From Rubrivivax sp. (GTDB lineage: Bacteria > Pseudomonadota > Gammaproteobacteria > Burkholderiales > Burkholderiaceae_C), in NCBI GenBank assembly GCA_004210455.1, contig SEFA01000021.1, positions 1 to 64,000 of the forward strand: a DNA stretch of 64,000 bases, read 5' to 3'. Positions within the stretch are counted from its first letter, which is position 1, and every line of letters starts with the position of its first letter. Under the pieces are notes generated by a model that worked only from the letters and a program-made list of their open reading frames with translations, was not told the DNA's origin and made no database searches. Positions 7,374 through 25,001 of this stretch are shown in pieces. A program made the position numbers and the translations under genes.

Positions 7374-8078
7374 TCAGGCGGAGGGCCGCGATTCTAGGAG
7401 TTGCCAGCGCATGTGCTCGCTGGCCATCTCCGCGGGAAGGTCATGCGGGCGCAGACCGCGCCCGGTGAGCCCCGGATCAACGACCACGGCCAGCATCAGG
7501 CCGAGGCCCTGCACGCGGGCGCAGGCGCAGTCCGCGCGCGACGCATCGGCGTCGTCGGCGGGTTGGAATTCGAGCCCACGCATCTGCGCGAAGTCGAGAC
7601 CGCGTCCCCGGCACTTCAGCCAGGCTTCCTTGAGCGTCCACCAGCCGTAGAAGACTGCGAGCGCATCGGCGTCGCGGCCAAGGACGCGGAGGCGTTCGAT
7701 CTCGGCGCACTGGGCGTCGCCGTGCACCTGACGCGCGAGCGCGAGCAGGTCGCCGCGCCGCGGCCGCAGCACTTCGAGGTCGACGCCGACCGGCAGCGCG
7801 CACGCGCCGCCGAACAGCCAGTCGCCACTGTGGGAGAGATTGACATGCCCGGACGGCAGCGTGCTGCGCCCGTGGGCATCGATGTCGGGAGGAACGGCCG
7901 TGAGCTGCCGCAGCAGCCGGCGTCCCTGGACGAAGCGCTCACTCGCGTCGTCATGCCGGAGGCCCGCGAGCCGGGTGCGCTCACCCGGCAGCAGGTCCTC
8001 GGCGGCCAACGGCGGACCGGACAGGCCGGTCCGCGTCGTCAGCGCCAGGCGAAGGAACGGCGGCAGCGCGGCGCTCAT
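7374..8078 (-). other. PPTase module with its own start codon
   Basis: 234 aa starting MSAALPPFLRLAL, the normal size of an Sfp/AcpS2-type enzyme. Landmarks are LLPGERTRLAGLR and the RF..GR.LLR helix, VNLSHSGDW, VGVDLE (Mg-binding acidic pair) and WTLKEAWLK (catalytic Glu and Lys). It would attach 4'-phosphopantetheine to the conserved Ser of ApeE and ApeF. PPTases are frequent members of aryl polyene clusters. No good Shine-Dalgarno precedes the ATG (GGCAGC only), so translation may depend on ribosomes arriving from the lipoprotein frame. Confidence 0.8.
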
Positions 8079-8441
8079 GCCGGAGCTGCCGGCCAACGGG
8101 CCGAGCATCACGCGGGTCGCGCCGTGGGTGAATTCCATCTGCTCGACCACCGGCGTGACCGTCAGCTTGCGGCCGTTGTCCGGCTTGGCGTTCCAGTCGA
8201 GCTTGGCGGAGGACAGGCCCTTGTCCAGGTTCTCCTGGATCTTGGCCACGGCGCCCGGGCTGGCCTTGATGCCGTCGGCGACGCGCACCGGCTGCACCTC
8301 GATGCGGCCGAAGGACTGGAAGGCCTCCGCCGGCGGCGGATTCTCGGCGGCGGAGGCCTTGATCTTGGTGGCGCAGCCCTGCAGGGCGGCAAGGCCCATC
8401 AGGCCGGCGATCGCGAAGACGCGAAGCATGTGACGACGCAT
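7374..8441 (-). CDS. In-frame fusion: truncated lipoprotein plus 4'-phosphopantetheinyl transferase
   Basis: 355-codon frame. Residues 1-23 are a lipoprotein signal peptide with lipobox LQGC. Residues 24-121 (KIKASAAENPPPAEAF to GPLAGSS) look like the N-terminal half of a small outer-membrane lipoprotein, possibly of the DUF4410 type. The half that should follow GPLAGSS is absent. From Met122 the frame is a full-length Sfp-type PPTase. The start is supported by GAGGGA about 7 nt upstream of the ATG at 8441. A lipid-anchored PPTase would be exported away from its ACP and CoA substrates, so the fused reading is probably a deletion scar, with the PPTase translated from its own ATG at 8078. It is the last gene of the APE run. 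Confidence 0.75.
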   Translation of the reverse strand: MRRHMLRVFAIAGLMGLAALQGCATKIKASAAENPPPAEAFQSFGRIEVQPVRVADGIKASPGAVAKIQENLDKGLSSAKLDWNAKPDNGRKLTVTPVVEQMEFTHGATRVMLGPLAGSSGMSAALPPFLRLALTTRTGLSGPPLAAEDLLPGERTRLAGLRHDDASERFVQGRRLLRQLTAVPPDIDAHGRSTLPSGHVNLSHSGDWLFGGACALPVGVDLEVLRPRRGDLLALARQVHGDAQCAEIERLRVLGRDADALAVFYGWWTLKEAWLKCRGRGLDFAQMRGLEFQPADDADASRADCACARVQGLGLMLAVVVDPGLTGRGLRPHDLPAEMASEHMRWQLLESRPSA

Positions 8442-8494
8442 GGAAAACTCCCTCGATATGTCGTTGGTATGGTGAAAACAGTGCGCTGGTCCGC

Positions 8495-8917
8495 TCAGCG
8501 GCGCAGCTCTTCCTGGATGTCCTTGCCCAGGTTGATCACCCAGCCGTTGTAGAGCGGATGGATCTGGGCCACGCCGTCCTTCATGCCCCACAGCAGGTCC
8601 CTGCTGGAGACATACTTGATCTGGAAGCTGGCGTCGTCGTAGGTCACCGAGACCACCGCCTCGTGCTTGCCGTTCTGCTTGTCCAGCACCAGCAGCACTT
8701 CACCGGGCTTCTCCTCGCGGACCTGCCAGGTGCGCTTGGCGCCGCCTCGGATGATGGCCTCCTTGATGGCGTCCGCGCCCGGGGCCTTGCCGGCGGCGTT
8801 GGTCACGGTCACGCGTTCCTGCTCCAGCAGCGGCGCGGGGCTGCGCGCAGCCAGGGCGCTGGGGGCGGCTGCGCCCAGCGCGGCGGCCATCATGGCGGAA
8901 ATCAACAGCTTCTTCAT
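8495..8917 (-). CDS. Small exported protein of unknown function
   Basis: 140 aa. Signal peptide MKKLLISAMMAAALGAAAPS ending at ALA-AR near residue 27. The mature domain of about 110 residues has an AIKEAIIRGGAKRTW helix, then alternating strands (GEVLLVLDKQ, EAVVSVTYDD, FQIKYVSS) and ends IHPLYNGWVINLGKDIQEEL. This architecture recurs in small periplasmic proteins of betaproteobacteria, but I know no assigned function. CAGGGAG precedes the ATG. Same strand as the APE genes and 53 bp upstream of the lipoprotein-PPTase frame. The distance to the previous gene (131 bp) is filled by an octamer repeat. Confidence 0.75.
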   Translation of the reverse strand: MKKLLISAMMAAALGAAAPSALAARSPAPLLEQERVTVTNAAGKAPGADAIKEAIIRGGAKRTWQVREEKPGEVLLVLDKQNGKHEAVVSVTYDDASFQIKYVSSRDLLWGMKDGVAQIHPLYNGWVINLGKDIQEELRR

Positions 8918-8990
8918 TCGGTACTCCCTGAATCGGACGATATGGATCAACCTCCGCGCGCGCCGTCCTGCGCGGCGCGGAGGGTCAAGC

Positions 8991-9048: not shown

Positions 9049-9519
9049 TCAGTTGGCGACCTTGGCGTACGTGCCCTTCAACGCGACGCCGATGATCATG
9101 GCGCCGGCGTGGCACTCGAAGGTCGTGTCGCTCTTGGTCTCGTTCTTCTTGTAGTAGCTGACCATGTCGACGACGGCGTTCGCGCCTTCGCGCTTGGCGC
9201 TGTTCTGGAACTGGATCAGCGCGCTCAGCGCGGCCCACTTGCAGCCGAACTCGTCGGACTTGCCCACGCCGTTGGTCTTCTGGTTGGAGCTGTCCGTGCC
9301 CATGCGCTTCTCGACGCGCGGCGTCTTGGCGCCGGCCAGGTAGAACTTGACCGAACCGTCGAGCTTGCCTTCGGCTTCCGGCATGGCCAGCACGTCGGCC
9401 AGCGGGATGTGCAGCACCGTGTCGCGCGCCTGCGCGGCACCGGCCGCCAGGCCCAGCGCGGCGACGCCGACGGCCAGCGAGCGCTTCAGGACGAGGGCGT
9501 ACGTGTTCTTCGAGGTCAT
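9049..9519 (-). CDS. Exported protein of unknown function at the end of the APE cluster
   Basis: 156 aa. N-terminal signal peptide: KRSLAVGVAALGLAAGAAQA with cleavage before RDTVLH. The mature part starts with a short IPLADVLAMPEA helix, then strands and two cysteines (FGCKWAAL and TFECHAGA) that could form a disulfide in the periplasm, and KREGANAVVDMVSYYKK, a layout reminiscent of small secreted YbjQ/YdgH-like beta-alpha domains. Function unknown. Similar genes are sometimes labelled 'excinuclease ATPase subunit' in databases, which the sequence does not support. The ATG at 9519 follows AGAAAGGG. It lies 68 bp after apeR. Confidence 0.72.
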   Translation of the reverse strand: MTSKNTYALVLKRSLAVGVAALGLAAGAAQARDTVLHIPLADVLAMPEAEGKLDGSVKFYLAGAKTPRVEKRMGTDSSNQKTNGVGKSDEFGCKWAALSALIQFQNSAKREGANAVVDMVSYYKKNETKSDTTFECHAGAMIIGVALKGTYAKVAN

Positions 9520-9587
9520 GGGGTCCCTTTCTGGAGGACGTTGTGGTGGTGGAGGACGGTGGTGGTGCGCGGCCCGCGGTGGCGGCC

Positions 9588-10817
9588 TCAGATCCGGCGG
9601 AAGATCAGCGAGGTGTTGATGCCGCCGAACGCGAAGTTGTTGCTCATCACCAGGTCGGTCTGCAGCGCGCGACCGTCGCCGGTGAGGTAGTCCAGCTCGC
9701 CGCAGCGCGGGTCGACCTCGGTGAGGTTGAGCGTCGGGGCGAACCAGCCCTCGCGCATCATCTCGATGGTCATCCACGCTTCGAGCGCACCGCACGCGCC
9801 CAGCGTGTGGCCCATGTAGCTCTTCAGCGACGAGATCGCCACCTTGGACCCGAACACCTCGTTCGTCGCGCGCGACTCGGCCACGTCGCCGTGCTCGGTC
9901 GCGGTGCCGTGCGCGTTGACGTAGGGGATCGCCGCAGCGTCCAGGCCCGCGCTCTCCAGCGCCAGGCGCATCGCCTGCGCCATCGTCGGCGCGTTGGGCT
10001 GCGTGACGTGGCAGCCGTCGCTGTTGGTGCCGAAGCCGATCACCTCGGCCAGCATCGTCGCGCCGCGCGCCTTGGCGTGTTCGTAGTCCTCCAGCACGAA
10101 GGTGCAGGCGCCCTCGCCCAGGACCAGGCCGTCACGATGGACGTCGAACGGCCGCGGCGTCAGCGACGGGCTGTCGTTGTGCTTGACGCTGGTGGCGAAA
10201 AGCGTGTCGAAGACCGCCGCCTCGGTGGCGTCGAGTTCCTCGGCGCCGCCGGCCAGCATCGCGACCTGCTGGCCGCTGCGAACCATCTCGTAGGCGTAGC
10301 CCAGACCCTGGCTGCCGGACGTGCAGGCGCTGCTGGTCGTGACGACACGGCCGGTCAGGCCGAAGGTGACGCCGATGTTCACCGGCGCCGTGTGCGACAT
10401 CATCTTGATGTAGGTCGTGGCGTTGATGCCCTCGGTGCTCTTCTCGATGAGCATGCGGCCAAAGTCGCCGATGGCCTTGGGCGTCCCGGCCGACGAGCCG
10501 TAGGACACGCCGACCTTGCCGCCCTTGAGCACCGGATCGCCGAGCAGGCCGGCCTGCTCCAGCGCCATCTCGCTGGCACGCACCGCCATCAGCGCGACGC
10601 GGCCCATGCTGCGCGTGGTCTTGCGGTTGTAGCGGACAGGATCCAGATGGAAGGGCGCGGCAGGCACGCCGACGCGGGTGTTCAAGCCCTCGTAGAGGTC
10701 CCACTCGTCGATGTGCTGGACCGCATTGCGGCCGCTGCGCAGATGAGCGAGCACCGAGGTCCAATCGCAGCCCAACGGGCTGATCGCCCCAATGCCCGTG
10801 ACGACGACGCGCCTCAT
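9588..10817 (-). CDS. apeR: Beta-ketoacyl-ACP synthase, ApeR-type
   Basis: 409 aa FabF-like condensing enzyme. Catalytic triad visible as Cys165 in TTSSACTSGSQG, His303 in NAHGTATEHGD and His337 in SYMGHTLGACGALEA. Starts MRRVVVTGIGAISPLG and ends AFGGINTSLIFRRI, so it is complete. In studied aryl polyene systems ApeR is a second, stand-alone ketosynthase, probably for initiation or early extension, beside the ApeO-ApeC pair. The ATGA overlap with apeQ indicates coupling. Assignment as R rather than O rests on gene order (last of the N-O-P-Q-R run). Confidence 0.85.
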   Translation of the reverse strand: MRRVVVTGIGAISPLGCDWTSVLAHLRSGRNAVQHIDEWDLYEGLNTRVGVPAAPFHLDPVRYNRKTTRSMGRVALMAVRASEMALEQAGLLGDPVLKGGKVGVSYGSSAGTPKAIGDFGRMLIEKSTEGINATTYIKMMSHTAPVNIGVTFGLTGRVVTTSSACTSGSQGLGYAYEMVRSGQQVAMLAGGAEELDATEAAVFDTLFATSVKHNDSPSLTPRPFDVHRDGLVLGEGACTFVLEDYEHAKARGATMLAEVIGFGTNSDGCHVTQPNAPTMAQAMRLALESAGLDAAAIPYVNAHGTATEHGDVAESRATNEVFGSKVAISSLKSYMGHTLGACGALEAWMTIEMMREGWFAPTLNLTEVDPRCGELDYLTGDGRALQTDLVMSNNFAFGGINTSLIFRRI

Positions 10818-11560
10818 CCCACCATTCCTCCGTTGACCGAGATCACCTGCCGGGTGATGTAGGCCGCGTCCTTGCCCATCAGGAAGGCCACCGTGGCGGC
10901 CACCTCCTCCGGTGTCCCGACGCGTTGCGCCGGGATCAGCTTCATGGCTTCCTCGAGGATCCGTTCGTCCACCATCTCGGTGGCAATCAGGCCGGGCGCG
11001 ACGCAGTTCACCGTGATCTGCCGGCTGGCCAATTCGACCGCCAGCGCTTTTGTGGCGCCGATGATACCGGCCTTGCTGGCGCTGTAATTGACCTGACCCC
11101 GGTTGCCCATGACACCCGACACGGAGGCCAGCGTCACGATGCGGCCCGGCTTGCGGCGGCGCACCAGCGGCATCGTCAGCGGATGCAGCACGTTGTAGAA
11201 GGCGTCCAGGTTGGTGTGGATGACCTGGTCCCAGTCCTCGCCGCTGAGCGCCGGGAAGGCGCCGTCGCGCGCGATGCCGGCGTTGCAGACGACGCCGTAG
11301 TAGCAGCCGTGCGCCTCGACGTCGGCCAGCAGCGCGGTCGACGCGGCCTCGCGGTCGGCGACGTCGAACTGCAGCACGCGGGCCTGGCGACCCAGGGCCG
11401 TGATCTCGGCGGCGACGGCGTCGGCTTCCTCGACACGGCTGCGGCAGTGCACCACCACGTCGTAGCCGTCGCGCGCCAGGCGCAGCGCCACCGCGCGCCC
11501 GATGCCCCGGCTGGAGCCGGTCACGAGGACGGTGTCCTTGGAATCGTTGTCGTTCTTCAT
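10814..11560 (-). CDS. apeQ: 3-ketoacyl-ACP reductase, ApeQ-type (FabG-like SDR)
   Basis: 248 aa short-chain dehydrogenase. Cofactor motif TGSSRGIG at residues 14-21, NAG at 93-95, catalytic Ser146, Tyr159 and Lys163 in NYSASKAG. Ends ISVNGGMVG as FabG proteins do. It reduces the beta-keto group formed after each malonyl extension of the polyene. The 74-bp gap to apeP is the longest in the apeO-apeR stretch and is relatively AT-rich (11561-11634), so an internal promoter is possible. No clear -35/-10 pair was identified and the ribosome site is weak. Confidence 0.9.
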   Translation of the reverse strand: MKNDNDSKDTVLVTGSSRGIGRAVALRLARDGYDVVVHCRSRVEEADAVAAEITALGRQARVLQFDVADREAASTALLADVEAHGCYYGVVCNAGIARDGAFPALSGEDWDQVIHTNLDAFYNVLHPLTMPLVRRRKPGRIVTLASVSGVMGNRGQVNYSASKAGIIGATKALAVELASRQITVNCVAPGLIATEMVDERILEEAMKLIPAQRVGTPEEVAATVAFLMGKDAAYITRQVISVNGGMVG

Positions 11561-11634
11561 GAAGCTTGGTAAGCGGTCTTTTCTTGAATTCTCGTCGGGC
11601 GCGCGGAGCGCCTCTTCACGCCATCTTCACAGCA

Positions 11635-12249
11635 TCATCCTGTCGTCGCCCCGGCCAGGAAGGCCGCCGGATCCGGCGGCCCGAACACCGTGAGCTGCGC
11701 CTGGGCCAGCGGCGGCTCGTCCGGGGCCGGCGGCATGGGGCCGGCCAGGTGGAGCATGCAAGCGAACTGGCCGAGGCCGTTGTCGGCCTGGAACTCGCGC
11801 GCGATCTCGACGCGCAGCGTTTCGCCGGCCTCGAAGCGGGCGCGCGTGCTGCGGTACTTGCGGCAACCGAGCAACAGGCCGATGCGCGGCGGCTCGCCGC
11901 GCGCGCGGCCCTGCACGCCCGCCCATGCGGCCACCGCCTGCGCCATCAACTCGATGCCGATCCAGCCGCCGATGCCGGTGCCGTCGCCCTGGCTGTCGTG
12001 GAAGAGCTGGTCGCCGGTGAGCGCCGCCTCGGCGACGAGGCGGTCGCCCTCGCAGGACAGCACGCGCGTCAGCAGGCTCATGCGTCCGGCGTGAGGCACG
12101 AGGTCCGCCGCCGGCATCGGGAACACGAGGTCGAAGGCGGCGTCGGACGAATTCGACGGCGTCGACGGCGTCGACGGGATCGACGGGATCGACGGGATCG
12201 ACGGGATCGACGGGATCGACGGGATCGACGGGTTCATCGGCTCAGACAT
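11635..12249 (-). CDS. apeP: 3-hydroxyacyl-ACP dehydratase, ApeP-type, with repeat N-terminus
   Basis: 204 aa. The hotdog-fold dehydratase domain begins at about residue 45 (LVFPMPAADLVPHAGRMSLL) and includes DGTGIGGWIGIELMAQAVAAW, corresponding to the long central helix. ApeP works with ApeI to remove water after ketoreduction, giving the trans double bonds. Residues 6-32 are an insertion of Ile-Pro-Ser and Thr-Pro-Ser triplets encoded by a nonamer repeat. I would expect family members to begin close to the catalytic domain without this tail. The start overlaps the apeO stop by 8 bp. Confidence 0.82.
   Translation of the reverse strand: MSEPMNPSIPSIPSIPSIPSIPSIPSTPSTPSNSSDAAFDLVFPMPAADLVPHAGRMSLLTRVLSCEGDRLVAEAALTGDQLFHDSQGDGTGIGGWIGIELMAQAVAAWAGVQGRARGEPPRIGLLLGCRKYRSTRARFEAGETLRVEIAREFQADNGLGQFACMLHLAGPMPPAPDEPPLAQAQLTVFGPPDPAAFLAGATTG
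12152..12232. repeat. Nonamer tandem repeat in apeP 5' end
   Basis: Nine 9-bp units: TTCGACGGC, two GTCGACGGN units, then six identical ATCGACGGG units at 12179-12232 (as read on +). It encodes (Ile/Thr-Pro-Ser)n. The identical units suggest recent expansion. Unit changes keep the reading frame. Confidence 0.92.
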
Positions 12250-13444
12250 CGTGTCGGCTCAGGATCAGCGCGGCATTGCTGCCGCCGAAGGCGAAGGAGT
12301 TGCTCAGCACGTGGCGTGGCGCGCGGCCCAGGAGCTCGCCCGGCGCGGCCAGCCGGATCGCGGGCAGCGTCGGGTCGCGGCGACCATCCCACCAGTGTGG
12401 CGCGAGCCGGCCGTCCGGGTTGTCGCGCAGATGTATCCAGGCGATGGCGGCCTCCAACGCGCCGGCGGCGCCGAGCGTGTGGCCGGTCAGCGGTTTGGTC
12501 GAGCTGCACGGCAGGTCGAGCCCGAACAACGCTTCCACCGCCCGGCTCTCCATCGCGTCGTTTTGCGGCGTGGCCGTGCCGTGGAGGTTGAGGTAGTCGA
12601 TGTCGGACGGCTGCAGGCCGGCCTGCGTCAGCGCCGCATGCATGGCCGCCAGCGCGCCGGTGCCGTTGGGTTCGGGCGCCGAGATGTGATGCGCGTCCGA
12701 GGTCTCGCCCCAGCCGGACAGTCGGACCGGGCCGGGCTCGCGCGTCATCAGGAACAGCGCGGCGGCCTCGCCGATGTTGATGCCTTCGCGGCCTTCGCTC
12801 ATCGGGTTGCAGCGCGCGTCCGCGACCGAATCCAGCGCCGCGAAGCCCGCGACGGTGAAGCGGCACAGCGAGTCCGCGCCGCCGCAGACGACGGCGTCGC
12901 AGAGGCCGGCGCGCAGCAGCCGCGCGGCGCTCGCCAGCGCCTTCGCGCTGGACGAGCAGGCCGTCGAGATCACATGGCGCGGGCCGGCGGTGCCGATCTC
13001 ACGCGCGAGCATCAGCGCGGGCGCGCCGATCTCCTGCTGGCCGACGTGGAAGGACGCGGGCAATTGAGGCGTCTTGCCACCGGCATCGGCTGAAGCGATC
13101 CAGGCCTGCTCGGCTTCGCCGACGCCCGAGGTGCTGGTCCCCAGCACCACGCCGACGCGGCCCGCGCCGAAGCGCGCGATCGCCGCATCGACGGCGGGAC
13201 GGATCTGGGCGAGCGCCTCCAGCAGCAGCGCGTTGTTGCGGCTGCGCTCGGCGAGCGGGCGCGCGTCGACGGTCGGCAGCGCGGCGTTCACCGCGCCCAG
13301 GTGCAGGGAGCGCCCGGGCCAGATCGCCTCGTTCGGCGCGACGCCGCCGGGTGCGTCCGCGAAGACGCCGGCGCGCAGCGCCTCGACGCCGCTGCCCAGG
13401 GCGCAGACGACGCCCAGCTCATGCAGATAGACGGCCACGCTCAT
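12242..13444 (-). CDS. apeO: Beta-ketoacyl-ACP synthase, ApeO-type (KS partner of ApeC)
   Basis: 400 aa from the ATG at 13444 that overlaps the apeN stop as ATGA. The open frame extends far upstream, but that part is antisense-like and not coding. The triad is Cys163 in STACSSSAKAL, His288 in NLHGTATPQND and His322 in LTGHTLGAAGALEA. The C-terminus is NSFAFGGSNAALILSRHDV. In characterised APE synthases ApeO pairs with the chain-length-factor-like ApeC to form the elongating ketosynthase. Confidence 0.86.
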   Translation of the reverse strand: MSVAVYLHELGVVCALGSGVEALRAGVFADAPGGVAPNEAIWPGRSLHLGAVNAALPTVDARPLAERSRNNALLLEALAQIRPAVDAAIARFGAGRVGVVLGTSTSGVGEAEQAWIASADAGGKTPQLPASFHVGQQEIGAPALMLAREIGTAGPRHVISTACSSSAKALASAARLLRAGLCDAVVCGGADSLCRFTVAGFAALDSVADARCNPMSEGREGINIGEAAALFLMTREPGPVRLSGWGETSDAHHISAPEPNGTGALAAMHAALTQAGLQPSDIDYLNLHGTATPQNDAMESRAVEALFGLDLPCSSTKPLTGHTLGAAGALEAAIAWIHLRDNPDGRLAPHWWDGRRDPTLPAIRLAAPGELLGRAPRHVLSNSFAFGGSNAALILSRHDV

Positions 13445-20395: not shown

Positions 20396-21338
20396 CGGGT
20401 TGATTCCAGAACGGGAAGAAGTTGAACCAGTCATGCGGCGAACGGCGCAGGCAGCGCGTCAACGCGTCGACGTAGGCGAGCGCAGGCGCGGTCATCGCGC
20501 CCTCGCGGTCGCCGCGCGGCAGCGCGATGCGCTCGGCCAGGCGCTCGAAGCGCAGCGCGTAGCCGCGGCCCTCGTGCACGCAGCCCATGAAGAAGAGCGG
20601 GCACTTGAGCAGCCCGGCGATCAGGTAGGGCCCGATCGGGAAACGCGCCGGCGCGCCCAGGAAAGGCAGCAGCAGCGTGCGGCCGCTGTTGACCGGCACG
20701 CGGTCGCCGGCGATGACGATGCACTCGCCGCCGGCGACACGCTCGGCCAGTTGCATCGCCAGCGCGGGGTCGATGCCGGTGACTTCGATCAGGCGCACGC
20801 TCGCGCCGTCCGCGATCGCATCGTCGCCCTGCAGCCGGTGGAGGATGCGGTTGAAGCTTTGCGCATGGCGCGTGTGCACCAGCACGTTGAGACGCACGCC
20901 CGGCATCCGGCCGGCGAGCGCGCGGCACAGTTCCAGGCAGCCGATGTGGGCCGTCGCGAGCACGACGCCCTGGCCGGTGCGCAGCTGCGCCAGCACGTCA
21001 TCCTGACCGGCGATGCTGACGTGCTCGGGCGGGAACCGGCCGGCCATCGCCAGCAGCTTGTCGAGCATGGTGTCGGCGAACAGCGCGACGTGCGCGACGC
21101 TGTCGCGCCAGGTCGGCGCGGGTCGCCCGGCCTGCGCGTGGATGCGGCCCAGGTAGTCGAGGCTGTCGCGACGCAGCGCGGGGCGGCTCAGCCAATGCAC
21201 GAACACGACCGGGAACATCGCCGCGCGGAACAGCCACCGTCCGGCGACGCGGTGCAGCGCATAGAGCAGCCAGATGCCGGCGACGAAGGTTGTCTCGCCG
21301 AATTGCGCCCAATGCCGGGGTTCGCTCGGAGCGCTCAT
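20382..21338 (-). CDS. LpxL/HtrB-like lysophospholipid acyltransferase of the APE cluster
   Basis: 318 aa. Starts with MSAPSEPRHWAQFGE, then an N-terminal hydrophobic segment FVAGIWLLYALHRVAG. The catalytic block is ATAHIGCLELCRAL (H-x4-E of LpxL-type enzymes), followed by VHTRHAQSFNRIL and a later ECIVIAGDRVPV with GRTLLLPFLGAPARFPIGPYL. Likely attaches an acyl or aryl-polyenoyl group to the lipid or sugar anchor. Coupled to apeJ by an ATGA overlap. In some APE clusters glycosyltransferase and acyltransferase are one protein; here they are separate. Confidence 0.83.
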   Translation of the reverse strand: MSAPSEPRHWAQFGETTFVAGIWLLYALHRVAGRWLFRAAMFPVVFVHWLSRPALRRDSLDYLGRIHAQAGRPAPTWRDSVAHVALFADTMLDKLLAMAGRFPPEHVSIAGQDDVLAQLRTGQGVVLATAHIGCLELCRALAGRMPGVRLNVLVHTRHAQSFNRILHRLQGDDAIADGASVRLIEVTGIDPALAMQLAERVAGGECIVIAGDRVPVNSGRTLLLPFLGAPARFPIGPYLIAGLLKCPLFFMGCVHEGRGYALRFERLAERIALPRGDREGAMTAPALAYVDALTRCLRRSPHDWFNFFPFWNQPDVES

Positions 21339-22069
21339 GCGGCCACCTTGCGCCACAGCAGCAGCGGCAGACGCGGCAGCATGCCGAAGAACAGCCGCGT
21401 GTGCATCCACGAGATCAGCAGGTTGTCCCGCAACGCGCGGAAGTGCGAGACGCCGTCCTCGGGATAACGCACGCGGGTCGCCACGTTGCGCACGCGCACG
21501 CCGTCCCAGACGAGGCGCACGGCGATCTCGACGTCGAAGTCCATGCGCCGGCCGATGCGCGTTCGCGTCAGCCGCGCCACTGTCGGCGCCAGCGGATAGA
21601 CGCGGAAACCGCACATCGAGTCCTTCACCGCGAAGGACAGCGTGTTGATCCACACCCAGACGTGGGTGGCGTAGCGGCCGTAGAGACGGCCCTTGGGCAC
21701 CGACGCGTCGTAGACGGGGCAGCCGCAGATGAAGTGGTCGGGGAAGGTTTCGGCCTCGGCCAGGAAGCGCGGCAGGTCGACGACGTCGTGCTGGCCGTCG
21801 GCATCGATCTGCAGCGCGTGCGTGAAGCCCAGGCGTTGCGCCTCGGTGAGGCCGGCGATCATCGCCCCGCCCTTGCCCTGGTTCACTGCGAGGCGCAGCA
21901 GGCGGACCTCGGCGTCGGCGGCGGACAACGCATCCAGCACCGCCGCGCAGCCAGGCTCGCTGCCGTCGTCGACCAGCAGCACCGGCAAGCCCTGAGCACG
22001 CAGGGCTCGCACGACGCCGCCCACCGGACCGCCGTGGTTGTAGACAGGCACGACCGCGGTGAGGTTCAT
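21335..22069 (-). CDS. apeJ: Family 2 glycosyltransferase, ApeJ-type
   Basis: 244 aa. GT-A fold: N-terminal VVPVYNHGGPVGGVVRAL, LVDDGSEPG, NQGKGGAMIAGL and ALQIDADGQHD, giving the donor-binding DxD (DAD). Then GRRMDFDVEIAVRLVWDG and a C-terminal RDNLLISWMHTRLFF amphipathic stretch. Resembles dolichyl-phosphate or polyprenyl-phosphate glycosyltransferases. In APE pathways it is thought to add a sugar during formation of the lipid anchor. The start overlaps the apeHI stop as ATGA. Confidence 0.85.
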   Translation of the reverse strand: MNLTAVVPVYNHGGPVGGVVRALRAQGLPVLLVDDGSEPGCAAVLDALSAADAEVRLLRLAVNQGKGGAMIAGLTEAQRLGFTHALQIDADGQHDVVDLPRFLAEAETFPDHFICGCPVYDASVPKGRLYGRYATHVWVWINTLSFAVKDSMCGFRVYPLAPTVARLTRTRIGRRMDFDVEIAVRLVWDGVRVRNVATRVRYPEDGVSHFRALRDNLLISWMHTRLFFGMLPRLPLLLWRKVAA

Positions 22070-23841
22070 GGCGTAGGCCCTTGCAGGCGGATCTTTCCAG
22101 CCGCGTGGACGCCGGCGGCGGAGCGATAGCCGAAGCTCAGCAGCGGCGCCGTGAAGGCGAGCGTCAGCTCTACCGTCATCCCGGGCGAGATCACCTGCTG
22201 GAACTTGAGGTTGTCGATGCCCGCGAAGTCCGCCTGACCGGTGGCCTGTCCCGCGGGCGGCAACGGCAGCCACTCGCGGGCGAGCAGCATCACCCAGTCG
22301 AGCTGGGCGACGCCGGGCAGGATCGGGTGGCCGGGGAAATGGCCATCGAACTGCGGCAGGCTCGCGTCGACGCTGAGTCGCAGCGTGACCTCGTTCGACG
22401 AACGCGCGAGCAGGCGCACGCCCGGGCGTCGGGGATCGAAGAGTCGCGTCAGCGCGGCGACCGTGACCTTGCCTTGCGCATTCACCGGCAGCTGAGAGAG
22501 GAAGCGCCAGCGCCGCGGCAACGCGATGCGTTCCAGGTGAGGCGCGAGGCGGTCCCGCAGCACTTGCGCGAACGCGGCCTTGCCGCGCGCGTCGTGCTCG
22601 GCCCAGCCGGCTTCGTTGAGCTGCGCGGCCACGGCGAGCTGCTCGCGCGCGCCCGGCTCCAGCACGAAGACGCGCAGGTCGTCCAGCCAGCCGCTGTCGC
22701 GCAGCACCGTCTCTATGGTCTGCAGCGACACGCGCTTGCCTTCGATCTTCACGATGCGATCGGCGCGACCCAGCAGCTCGAAGCCGTCGGCGGTGAGGCG
22801 CACGCGATCGGCGCTCTCGAACCATTCGGCGGGATCGGGCAGGTGGTGCGAGCGGACGCGCAGCGTGCCGGATTCATCGGCCCGCCAATCGATGCCGGGC
22901 AGCGCGGTCCACGTCGTCGGCGCGCCGTCGTCGCGCTGGCGCCAGGCCACGCCGCCGGTCTCGCTGCTGCCGTAGACCTCCAGCGGCGCCTGGCCGAAGA
23001 GGCGCCGGCAATCGGGCACCGCGTCGTCGGGCAGCGGGCCGCCAGAAGAGAAGATCAGCGCGAGATGACCGGCCTCGACCCGAGGCGCGCTGTCGGCGGG
23101 CGGCAGACGCTTCAGGTGCGCCGGACTGGCGACGACGGCGAAACGCGGGCCCTCGCGCAGCGCGGCGAGCAGGGTCTCGACATAGGGCAGGCGCTCCGCA
23201 TGCAGGACCCGGCCTGCGGCCAGCGGCCACAGGACGCGGTACAGCAGACCGTAGATGTGCTGGTGGGACACCAGGCCGAGGATCTCTGCGCCATCCAGGC
23301 GCGCACCGAAGGCCTGCTCGAGCGCGTCGACCTCGGCGAAGAGCTCGCGCAGCCGCTTCGGGATCGCACCCGGTTGGCCGGTGCTGCCGGAGGTGAAGAT
23401 GACGAGCCGTTCGGCTTCGGCATCGAGCGGCTCGAACGTCCGCTCATCAGGCGCCGTGGCCGCCTCGATGCGCCGCAGCGCGGCGTCCTCGACAAGACCT
23501 GTCACCGTCATCGGTGCGTCGCTGGCGAGCGCGCCCACGCGCCCGCGCAGCGCCTGCAGCGTCGCAGGCTGGAGATCGCCAGGTAGCCAGGCCGTGCCGC
23601 CCACGGCCCAGAGACCGAAGAGCGCGGCAGCGAATTCGACGGTGTCCTCGAAATGCATCGCCACGTGCGGCGCACCGGCCATGCGGTCGCCCGCCGCCAT
23701 CGACGCGAACGCCGCGCTCCATCGACGCGCCTGGGCGTGGAAGGCGGCTTCATCCACCAACGCGCCCGCACGGCGGGCGACTGGTCGGCGGGGACTGTCG
23801 GGCGCGCTCATCAGCGCGCACAGAGACTTCAGCAGACTCAT
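22066..23841 (-). CDS. apeHI: ApeH-ApeI fusion: acyl-ACP ligase plus dehydratase
   Basis: 591 aa. Residues about 1-450 are an adenylate-forming ligase: P-loop IFTSGSTGQPGAIPK, QHIYGLLYRVLWPL, VYGSSETGG, GRADRIVKIEGKRVS (hinge) and a late AQGKVTVAALTRLF with the catalytic Lys. Residues about 460-591 are a FabZ/ApeI-type hotdog dehydratase: FDGHFPGHPILPGVAQLDWV with the active-site His, and FQQVISPGMTVEL. In enterobacterial APE clusters these are two genes (apeH, apeI). Here a single protein would load the aromatic starter on the ACP and also dehydrate intermediates. Confidence 0.88.
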   Translation of the reverse strand: MSLLKSLCALMSAPDSPRRPVARRAGALVDEAAFHAQARRWSAAFASMAAGDRMAGAPHVAMHFEDTVEFAAALFGLWAVGGTAWLPGDLQPATLQALRGRVGALASDAPMTVTGLVEDAALRRIEAATAPDERTFEPLDAEAERLVIFTSGSTGQPGAIPKRLRELFAEVDALEQAFGARLDGAEILGLVSHQHIYGLLYRVLWPLAAGRVLHAERLPYVETLLAALREGPRFAVVASPAHLKRLPPADSAPRVEAGHLALIFSSGGPLPDDAVPDCRRLFGQAPLEVYGSSETGGVAWRQRDDGAPTTWTALPGIDWRADESGTLRVRSHHLPDPAEWFESADRVRLTADGFELLGRADRIVKIEGKRVSLQTIETVLRDSGWLDDLRVFVLEPGAREQLAVAAQLNEAGWAEHDARGKAAFAQVLRDRLAPHLERIALPRRWRFLSQLPVNAQGKVTVAALTRLFDPRRPGVRLLARSSNEVTLRLSVDASLPQFDGHFPGHPILPGVAQLDWVMLLAREWLPLPPAGQATGQADFAGIDNLKFQQVISPGMTVELTLAFTAPLLSFGYRSAAGVHAAGKIRLQGPTP

Positions 23842-24428: not shown

Positions 24429-24692
24429 TCAGGCGCCGGCGGTCTCCGGCGTCTTGATCAGGCCCTGCAACGCGTCGACGACGTCCTGCAGCGTGCGCAC
24501 GGCCTTGAAGGCCTCGGGCTGCAGCTTCTTGCCGACCATCGGCTTGAGTTTCACGATCAGGTCGACCGCGTCGATCGAGTCGATGTCGAGGTCCTCGTAC
24601 AGGCGAGCCTCGGGGGTGATGCGACCGGCTTCGATGTCGAAGGTCTCGATCAGGATGTCGCGCAGGCGCGCGAAGATGTCTTCATTCGTCAT
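24429..24692 (-). CDS. apeF: Acyl carrier protein, ApeF
   Basis: 87 aa, acidic four-helix ACP. Ser39 in LDIDSIDAVDLI is the phosphopantetheine site. One of two ACPs in the cluster; in studied systems ApeE and ApeF share starter loading and chain elongation. It should be activated by the PPTase encoded at 7374-8078. Confidence 0.9.
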   Translation of the reverse strand: MTNEDIFARLRDILIETFDIEAGRITPEARLYEDLDIDSIDAVDLIVKLKPMVGKKLQPEAFKAVRTLQDVVDALQGLIKTPETAGA

Positions 24693-24719: not shown

Positions 24720-25001
24720 TCAGGCCGCGACCTTGCCGTGCGCCGCGACGAAGCGGGCCAGCGCGCGGATGCTGGCGAAATGCTGGCGCGTCTCTTCGGA
24801 ATCCGCGGCCATGCTCACGCCATATTTCTTCTGCAGGGCCAGACCCAGTTCCAGCGCATCGATCGAATCGAGGCCCAGGCCGGTCACGAAGAGCGCGTCC
24901 TCGGCGTCGATCTGCTCGGGTGTCAGGTCCTCCAGATTCAAGGCCTCGATCAGTAGCAGTTTGATGTCACGTTCCAGCGCCTGCATGGCTCCCTCGTTCA
25001 T
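24720..25001 (-). CDS. apeE: Acyl carrier protein, ApeE
   Basis: 93 aa. Ser46 in TGLGLDSIDALELGLAL is the attachment site for phosphopantetheine. The start at 25001 overlaps apeD by 35 bp; an ATG at 24986 (MQALERDIK) would overlap by 20 bp and remove five residues. Helix 1 is QALERDIKLLLIEALNL. Partner ACP of ApeF. Confidence 0.9.
   Translation of the reverse strand: MNEGAMQALERDIKLLLIEALNLEDLTPEQIDAEDALFVTGLGLDSIDALELGLALQKKYGVSMAADSEETRQHFASIRALARFVAAHGKVAA

Follow-up and report, generated by a model that had tools for sequence, protein, structure and literature searches.

Introduction

Sfp-type phosphopantetheinyl transferases (PPTases) are about 220-240 aa long; the GxDxE and WxxKExxxK motifs provide the catalytic acidic and lysine residues of PPTases, and an HS motif is also expected. 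Gene fusion by deletion between neighboring operon genes is an event of an ordinary kind.

As described in the consulted part of the report on the aryl polyene (APE) cluster of E. coli, that cluster has no dedicated PPTase, and the ApeE and ApeF homologues were activated in vitro by the orphan AcpT, which lies outside the cluster (PMC8253772). The same part of the report states that most mutants in predicted core ape genes were unpigmented, and it proposes that the products of APE synthesis enter a membrane lipid and a Lol-like pathway of export (PMC8253772).

Here, we analyzed a locus of the window (the whole 64,000-nucleotide stretch of Rubrivivax sp. DNA) in which a truncated lipoprotein is joined in frame to the PPTase of a predicted APE cluster.

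Overall organization of the fused frame

The earlier note had described a lipobox LQGC, about 100 residues of a lipoprotein ending at GPLAGSS and a complete 234-aa PPTase in a single frame. Translation and a PF01648 match agreed with this description and placed the frame on the minus strand, where it begins with an ATG (8441), ends with a stop (7374-7376) and encodes 355 aa with no internal stop (Table 1). In the translation as read by eye, LQGC occupies residues 20-23 and is presumably the lipobox. The lipoprotein portion ends with GPLAGSSG at residue 121, and M122, directly next to it, opens the PPTase. The Pfam match of the fused protein to DUF4410 (E 0.095) was below the cut-off.

Given the composition of this DNA, little weight can be placed on the length of an open frame: the G+C content at third positions was 86-95% in the four window genes measured, and the opposite strand carries a 383-aa ORF across the fusion (7401-8552, plus strand), which is most likely a high-G+C by-product. 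The evidence for the fusion is thus the comparison with relatives, as the open frame by itself would prove little here. On homology, both halves are real, each matching a separate gene of Roseateles noduli, in different frames.

Table 1. Positions of the fused frame, its parts and the associated cluster genes in the window
Feature	Position	Strand	Evidence
Shine-Dalgarno-like GAGGGAG 5' of the lipoprotein ATG	8448..8454	-	anti-SD pairing -8.5 kcal/mol
Lipoprotein signal peptide, codons 1-22, ahead of the lipobox Cys (LQG↓C)	8376..8441	-	translation
Truncated lipoprotein, mature residues 23-121 (99 residues), DUF4410-like below cut-off	8079..8375	-	homology to R. noduli lipoprotein
Fusion joint; ~254-260 bp of relatives' DNA absent	8078..8079	-	alignment to relatives
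PPTase, codons 122-355 and stop; NLSHSG, GVDLE and WTLKEAWLK motifs	7374..8078	-	PF01648; alignment with Sfp 1qr0
APE core genes upstream of the fusion: apeR-, apeQ-, apeP- and apeO-like	9588..13444	-	family matches; open and collinear in R. noduli and G008
Cluster ACP, DIDSID motif, likely PPTase substrate	24429..24692	-	PF00550, NF003757
Second ACP, GLDSID motif, likely PPTase substrate	24720..25001	-	PF00550, NF006617

Comparison of the PPTase half with Sfp

The PPTase half matched PF01648 with 38.3 bits (cut-off 25), and its residues H204, D221, E223, E272 and K276 were aligned with the same residues of Sfp (1qr0, E 2e-9). Counted from M122, the PPTase is 234 aa long, and the Sfp chain has 228 aa. 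The AcpT model NF007676 (40.8 bits) and the HetI model NF042922 (44.3 bits) both missed their equivalog cut-offs of 174 and 370 bits, respectively. As judged from these matches, the C-terminal half is a complete Sfp/AcpT-type PPTase with predicted activity. In the source genome (G000), PF01648 matched only two genes, namely an AcpS that passes TIGR00516 and the fused PPTase; no PPTase of Sfp type other than the latter was found.

The surrounding aryl polyene cluster

The fusion belongs to a cluster on the minus strand, which is a predicted APE cluster and is otherwise open. In particular, it encodes ketosynthases, acyltransferases, two ACPs, a glycosyltransferase, an aromatic amino acid lyase, a thioesterase, a LolA-like protein, a KR, a methyltransferase, a DUF3261 protein and the apeO-, P-, Q- and R-like genes, followed by two small proteins and the fusion. 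ApeP, ApeI, ketosynthases, KR, the ACP pair and the ligase, which define membership in the APE clusters, were all present. An 812-aa cluster protein without a Pfam match lies at the place expected for the RND transporter.

The PPTase and the 12 other cluster genes compared were open in the window, R. noduli and G008 and followed the same gene order; this comparison omits the glycosyltransferase (partial in R. noduli, two stops in the G008 alignment), the epimerase (unmatched in the G008 stretch) and the small gene product of 8498-8953 (matched in part, at 48%, in R. noduli), and four genes were trimmed to their matched ranges. The two stops lie in the G008 glycosyltransferase alignment (L044, match to window 21338-22825) and may be a matter of frame or alignment. 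An AMP-binding ligase and an ApeI-like dehydratase were found in one 591-aa frame (22066-23841, minus strand); R. noduli and G008 match this frame over nearly its full length and therefore share the ligase-dehydratase fusion. Two small secreted-looking proteins are encoded on the minus strand between the apeR-like gene and the lipoprotein-PPTase fusion, at 8495-8953 (matched at 88% in G008 and at 48%, partial, in R. noduli) and at 9049-9522 (93% and 90%); Pfam and NCBIfam gave no convincing family for either.

Among the 16 genus genomes, ApeP was present in six, and by position a PPTase lay within ~4 kb of ApeP in all six. The cluster lipoprotein was found in three of these six, namely G000 (truncated), G005 and G008; a weak match in G011 was on another contig. 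The lipoprotein therefore seems dispensable for such clusters, and the PPTase accompanies them.

Comparison with relatives supports a deletion

The two closest relatives found were R. noduli HZ7 (G005; L012) and G008. In both, the lipoprotein gene is full length (200 aa and 195 aa, respectively) with its own stop, and a separate PPTase follows in another frame, which is the arrangement that the earlier note had suggested looking for in related genomes. Over residues 1-122, the fused protein shared 76% identity with the corresponding front part of the 200-aa lipoprotein of R. noduli, and residues 6-234 of the PPTase showed 83% identity to R. noduli. Between the equivalents of codon 121 and M122, the window was shorter by 260 bp than R. 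noduli and by 254 bp than G008. Both 260 and 254 leave a remainder of 2 on division by 3, which equals the shift between the two frames that has to be made up for the genes to fuse in frame. The proposed deletion of the C-terminal part of the lipoprotein together with the DNA up to the PPTase is supported, as the relatives keep both genes and ~254-260 bp are missing here. Flanking repeats were considered as the cause of this deletion; in the 60-base stretches, the longest shared words were 5 bp in R. noduli and 8 bp in G008, which reveals no long repeat at the site, and words this short are not decisive.

The fused protein was searched against 40 genomes of relatives, 16 of the genus, 399 of the family and 399 of the order, where G000 is in each set, genomes overlap between sets, and the family and order sets are even draws from larger groups with at most five candidates scored per genome. 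A single match spanning both halves was present in no genome of these sets except G000, so the fusion was confined to this genome among those searched. Additionally, a scan of the genome contigs gave 13 loci, four of which (L012, L013, L017 and L019) contained both halves, all as separate genes, and none of the 14 plasmid records matched covered 80% of the fused protein. As far as searched, the locus is probably a private deletion fusion of one lineage.

An error of assembly or sequencing would instead mean that the contig lacks a segment at 8079/8078 and that the two genes are separate in the real genome. The assembly is a draft of 189 contigs, and the joint is known from a single genome of one strain. 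Nevertheless, we consider such an error highly improbable: the relatives have no long flanking repeat, the joint is in frame, as expected from random drop-out one time in three, and the missing part of the lipoprotein had no match on any other contig of G000.

Features lost from the lipoprotein half

All 11 lipoprotein homologues examined were full length with their own stop. This set omits G257, whose match figures equal those of Paucibacter sp. KBW04 and which is apparently the same genome, and two weak matches, in G011 (on another contig) and G480; the starts of KBW04, G393 and G107 were back-projected with a first residue other than Met, which makes their lengths approximate, and their ends are real stops. 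A PPTase match lay in the fetched stretch for seven of the 11; some stretches are short, and the other four are no proof of absence. DUF4410 was matched by six of seven lipoprotein homologues (best E 7.2e-5).

In the signal region (residues 1-24), the only difference from R. noduli was Met5, which is Phe in R. noduli and G008. The C-terminal stretches FFQR, NLAS and GGPTGAD were present in all 11 aligned homologues and absent from the fused frame. Invariant columns in the 11 homologues numbered 55, and 33 of these fall within residues 121-200 and are lost here. By the mean share of the commonest residue, the contrast between lost and kept parts was smaller, with 0.73-0.81 across three lost segments, 0.57-0.69 for residues 1-90 and 0.82 for the retained residues 91-120. 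Between R. noduli and G008, dN/dS was 0.58 for the front of the lipoprotein, 0.76 for its back and 0.38 for the PPTase; the lipoprotein thus evolves fast even where it is intact. The stub has probably lost its native role. A PDB search with the lipoprotein profile gave no match at E up to 1, and our literature search, with a scope limited to that search, gave no paper linking DUF4410 with a lipoprotein.

Codons changed in one lineage only were counted across the window, R. noduli and G008, and compared by uncorrected Fisher p values. The private changes in the PPTase (synonymous:nonsynonymous) were 11:7 in the window and 13:6 in R. noduli (p 0.74); a first count with slightly different ends gave 12:7. 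In the stub, they were 1:8 in the window and 7:6 in R. noduli. The comparison of stub and PPTase gave p 0.019 in the window lineage and p 0.47 in R. noduli, and the stub here compared with the stubs of R. noduli and G008 gave p 0.074 and 0.24, respectively. An intact small cluster gene (9052-9522) also had two synonymous and five nonsynonymous changes in the window lineage. These counts give a thin hint, based on nine stub changes in which those before and after the deletion are mixed, that constraint on the stub may have relaxed and constraint on the PPTase may have continued.

Translation of the PPTase

Both R. noduli and G008 offer the PPTase frame a possible GTG start within a 4-nt overlap (GTGA) with the stop of the lipoprotein gene. 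Such an overlap was found in three of the seven loci with a PPTase nearby (R. noduli, G008 and G393) and was absent in the other four. The N-terminus that results from the GTGA start in G393 resembles that of the G011 PPTase, beside which there is no cluster lipoprotein. In the consulted part of a published report, same-strand pairs most often overlapped by 4 nt or 1 nt, with all other spacings far rarer, and translational coupling fell off within ~20 nt in the pairs tested (PMC10666635). The gene arrangement suggests that the PPTase of this genus may already have been translated by coupling to the lipoprotein, in which case its dependence on upstream translation would be ancestral.

The anti-SD pairing energies (kcal/mol) of the candidate PPTase starts were +1.9, -1.1 and -2.4 in R. 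noduli, -1.5 and -5.0 in G008 and -2.6 at M122 here. Three of six control starts paired at -6.1 or better (the fusion ATG, -8.5; apeR-like, -9.5; and PPK2), and the other three paired at -1.9 or worse (FabG-like, 0.0; ApeP-like, -1.9; and lyase, +1.2); four of the 10 control positions (8953, 9522, 13462 and epimerase) were left out as they are not start codons. Since three control starts, as placed here, pair no better than -2.6, weak pairing is compatible with a start at M122. The claim that the deletion deprived the PPTase of its own ribosome site finds no support in the relatives, in which candidate starts also pair weakly, above all in R. noduli. Re-initiation at the PPTase, which had also been proposed, is impossible now: the deletion removed the lipoprotein stop and none remains before the PPTase in the fused frame, so that the remaining routes are internal initiation or the fused product.

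Compartment conflict and its likely outcome

A lipoprotein that has been cleaved and lipidated is exposed to the periplasm, a compartment devoid of CoA and ACP. The conflict between an exported lipoprotein and a cytosolic PPTase, to which the earlier note had drawn attention, is a fair reading of the lipobox and the PPTase family.

The best explanation as a whole, to which we assign a probability of about one half, is a deletion fusion whose stub serves as a 5' leader and whose ACPs are activated by a minor cytosolic pool of PPTase. A deletion of ~254-260 bp in this lineage would have joined lipoprotein codon 121 in frame to the start of the APE PPTase gene, and the stub, devoid of its native function, would now be a 5' leader carrying a strong ribosome site. 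Most of the product would be the 355-aa fusion, sent to the membrane by the signal, and the two cluster ACPs would be activated by a smaller cytosolic pool, produced by initiation within the frame (at or near M122) or consisting of fusion protein that folds ahead of export. Two in three random deletions would leave the PPTase out of the upstream frame; because the genome search gave no further PPTase of Sfp type, in-frame results that still supply some PPTase would be favored over out-of-frame ones. The pairing at M122, far weaker than that at the lipoprotein start or the apeR-like start, counts against this explanation, as does the point that AcpS might activate the cluster ACPs instead.

The main rival is that the fusion in effect knocks out the PPTase, with the product exported, the ACPs left apo and the cluster silent, and with the loss too recent for decay. 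The signal peptide nearly as in R. noduli and the strong Shine-Dalgarno sequence at the fused start, together with the weak one at M122, are consistent with this outcome, and the mostly unpigmented core ape mutants and the extra-cluster AcpT of E. coli described above also argue for it. However, the PPTase changes in the window lineage resemble those in R. noduli, and the other cluster genes compared are open; overall, we regard a knock-out as somewhat unlikely.

Alternatively, the stub could have been selected to anchor or position the enzyme at the membrane site of APE lipid assembly. The frame, signal and stub are all still open, and the membrane lipid and Lol-like export proposed for APE synthesis would fit such a site. 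Against this, the lipidated product would face away from CoA and ACP, the fusion was in no other genome searched, and the private changes of the stub, few in number, lean nonsynonymous; a selected tether is therefore very unlikely. It is also unlikely, to a lesser degree, that the only Sfp-type PPTase is made as a signal fusion and still works, either through a leaky signal that retains part of it at the inner membrane face beside APE lipid assembly or through a single mRNA from which an exported stub-PPTase and, by way of an internal start, a cytosolic PPTase are both translated.

Annotation would name a 355-aa lipoprotein-PPTase where there is probably no selected two-domain protein. The locus offers a natural experiment on how an enzyme is retained in the cytosol once a deletion has placed an export signal ahead of it. 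Pigmentation should make the effect visible, and the genome yielded no second Sfp-type PPTase by which it would be masked.

Comparison with known systems

Upon comparison with Sfp/AcpT-type PPTases (PF01648), the catalytic part is complete and its motifs align with those of Bacillus Sfp; in contrast, the enzyme here sits within a longer frame that opens with a lipoprotein signal. The cluster lipoprotein of R. noduli HZ7 and relatives (DUF4410-like, ~194-200 aa) shares residues 1-121, including the signal and lipobox, whereas its C-terminal ~75-80 residues are missing here. As in other gene fusions by deletion between operon neighbors, adjacent genes on the same strand became one frame, but here an exported and a cytosolic protein are joined; the event is thus ordinary in mechanism and unusual in its compartment conflict. 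With the E. coli CFT073 APE cluster, as given in the consulted part of its report (PMC8253772, Table 1 up to gene M), the cluster in the window has in common ketosynthases, acyltransferases, two ACPs, a ligase, ApeI- and ApeP-like dehydratases, a KR, a methyltransferase, a thioesterase and a LolA-like protein, and its large protein without a Pfam match occupies the place expected for an RND transporter. Unlike that cluster, as far as the same part of the report describes it, the cluster in the window has its own PPTase; an aromatic amino acid lyase is a further difference, as are the two small proteins of secreted appearance beside the fusion.
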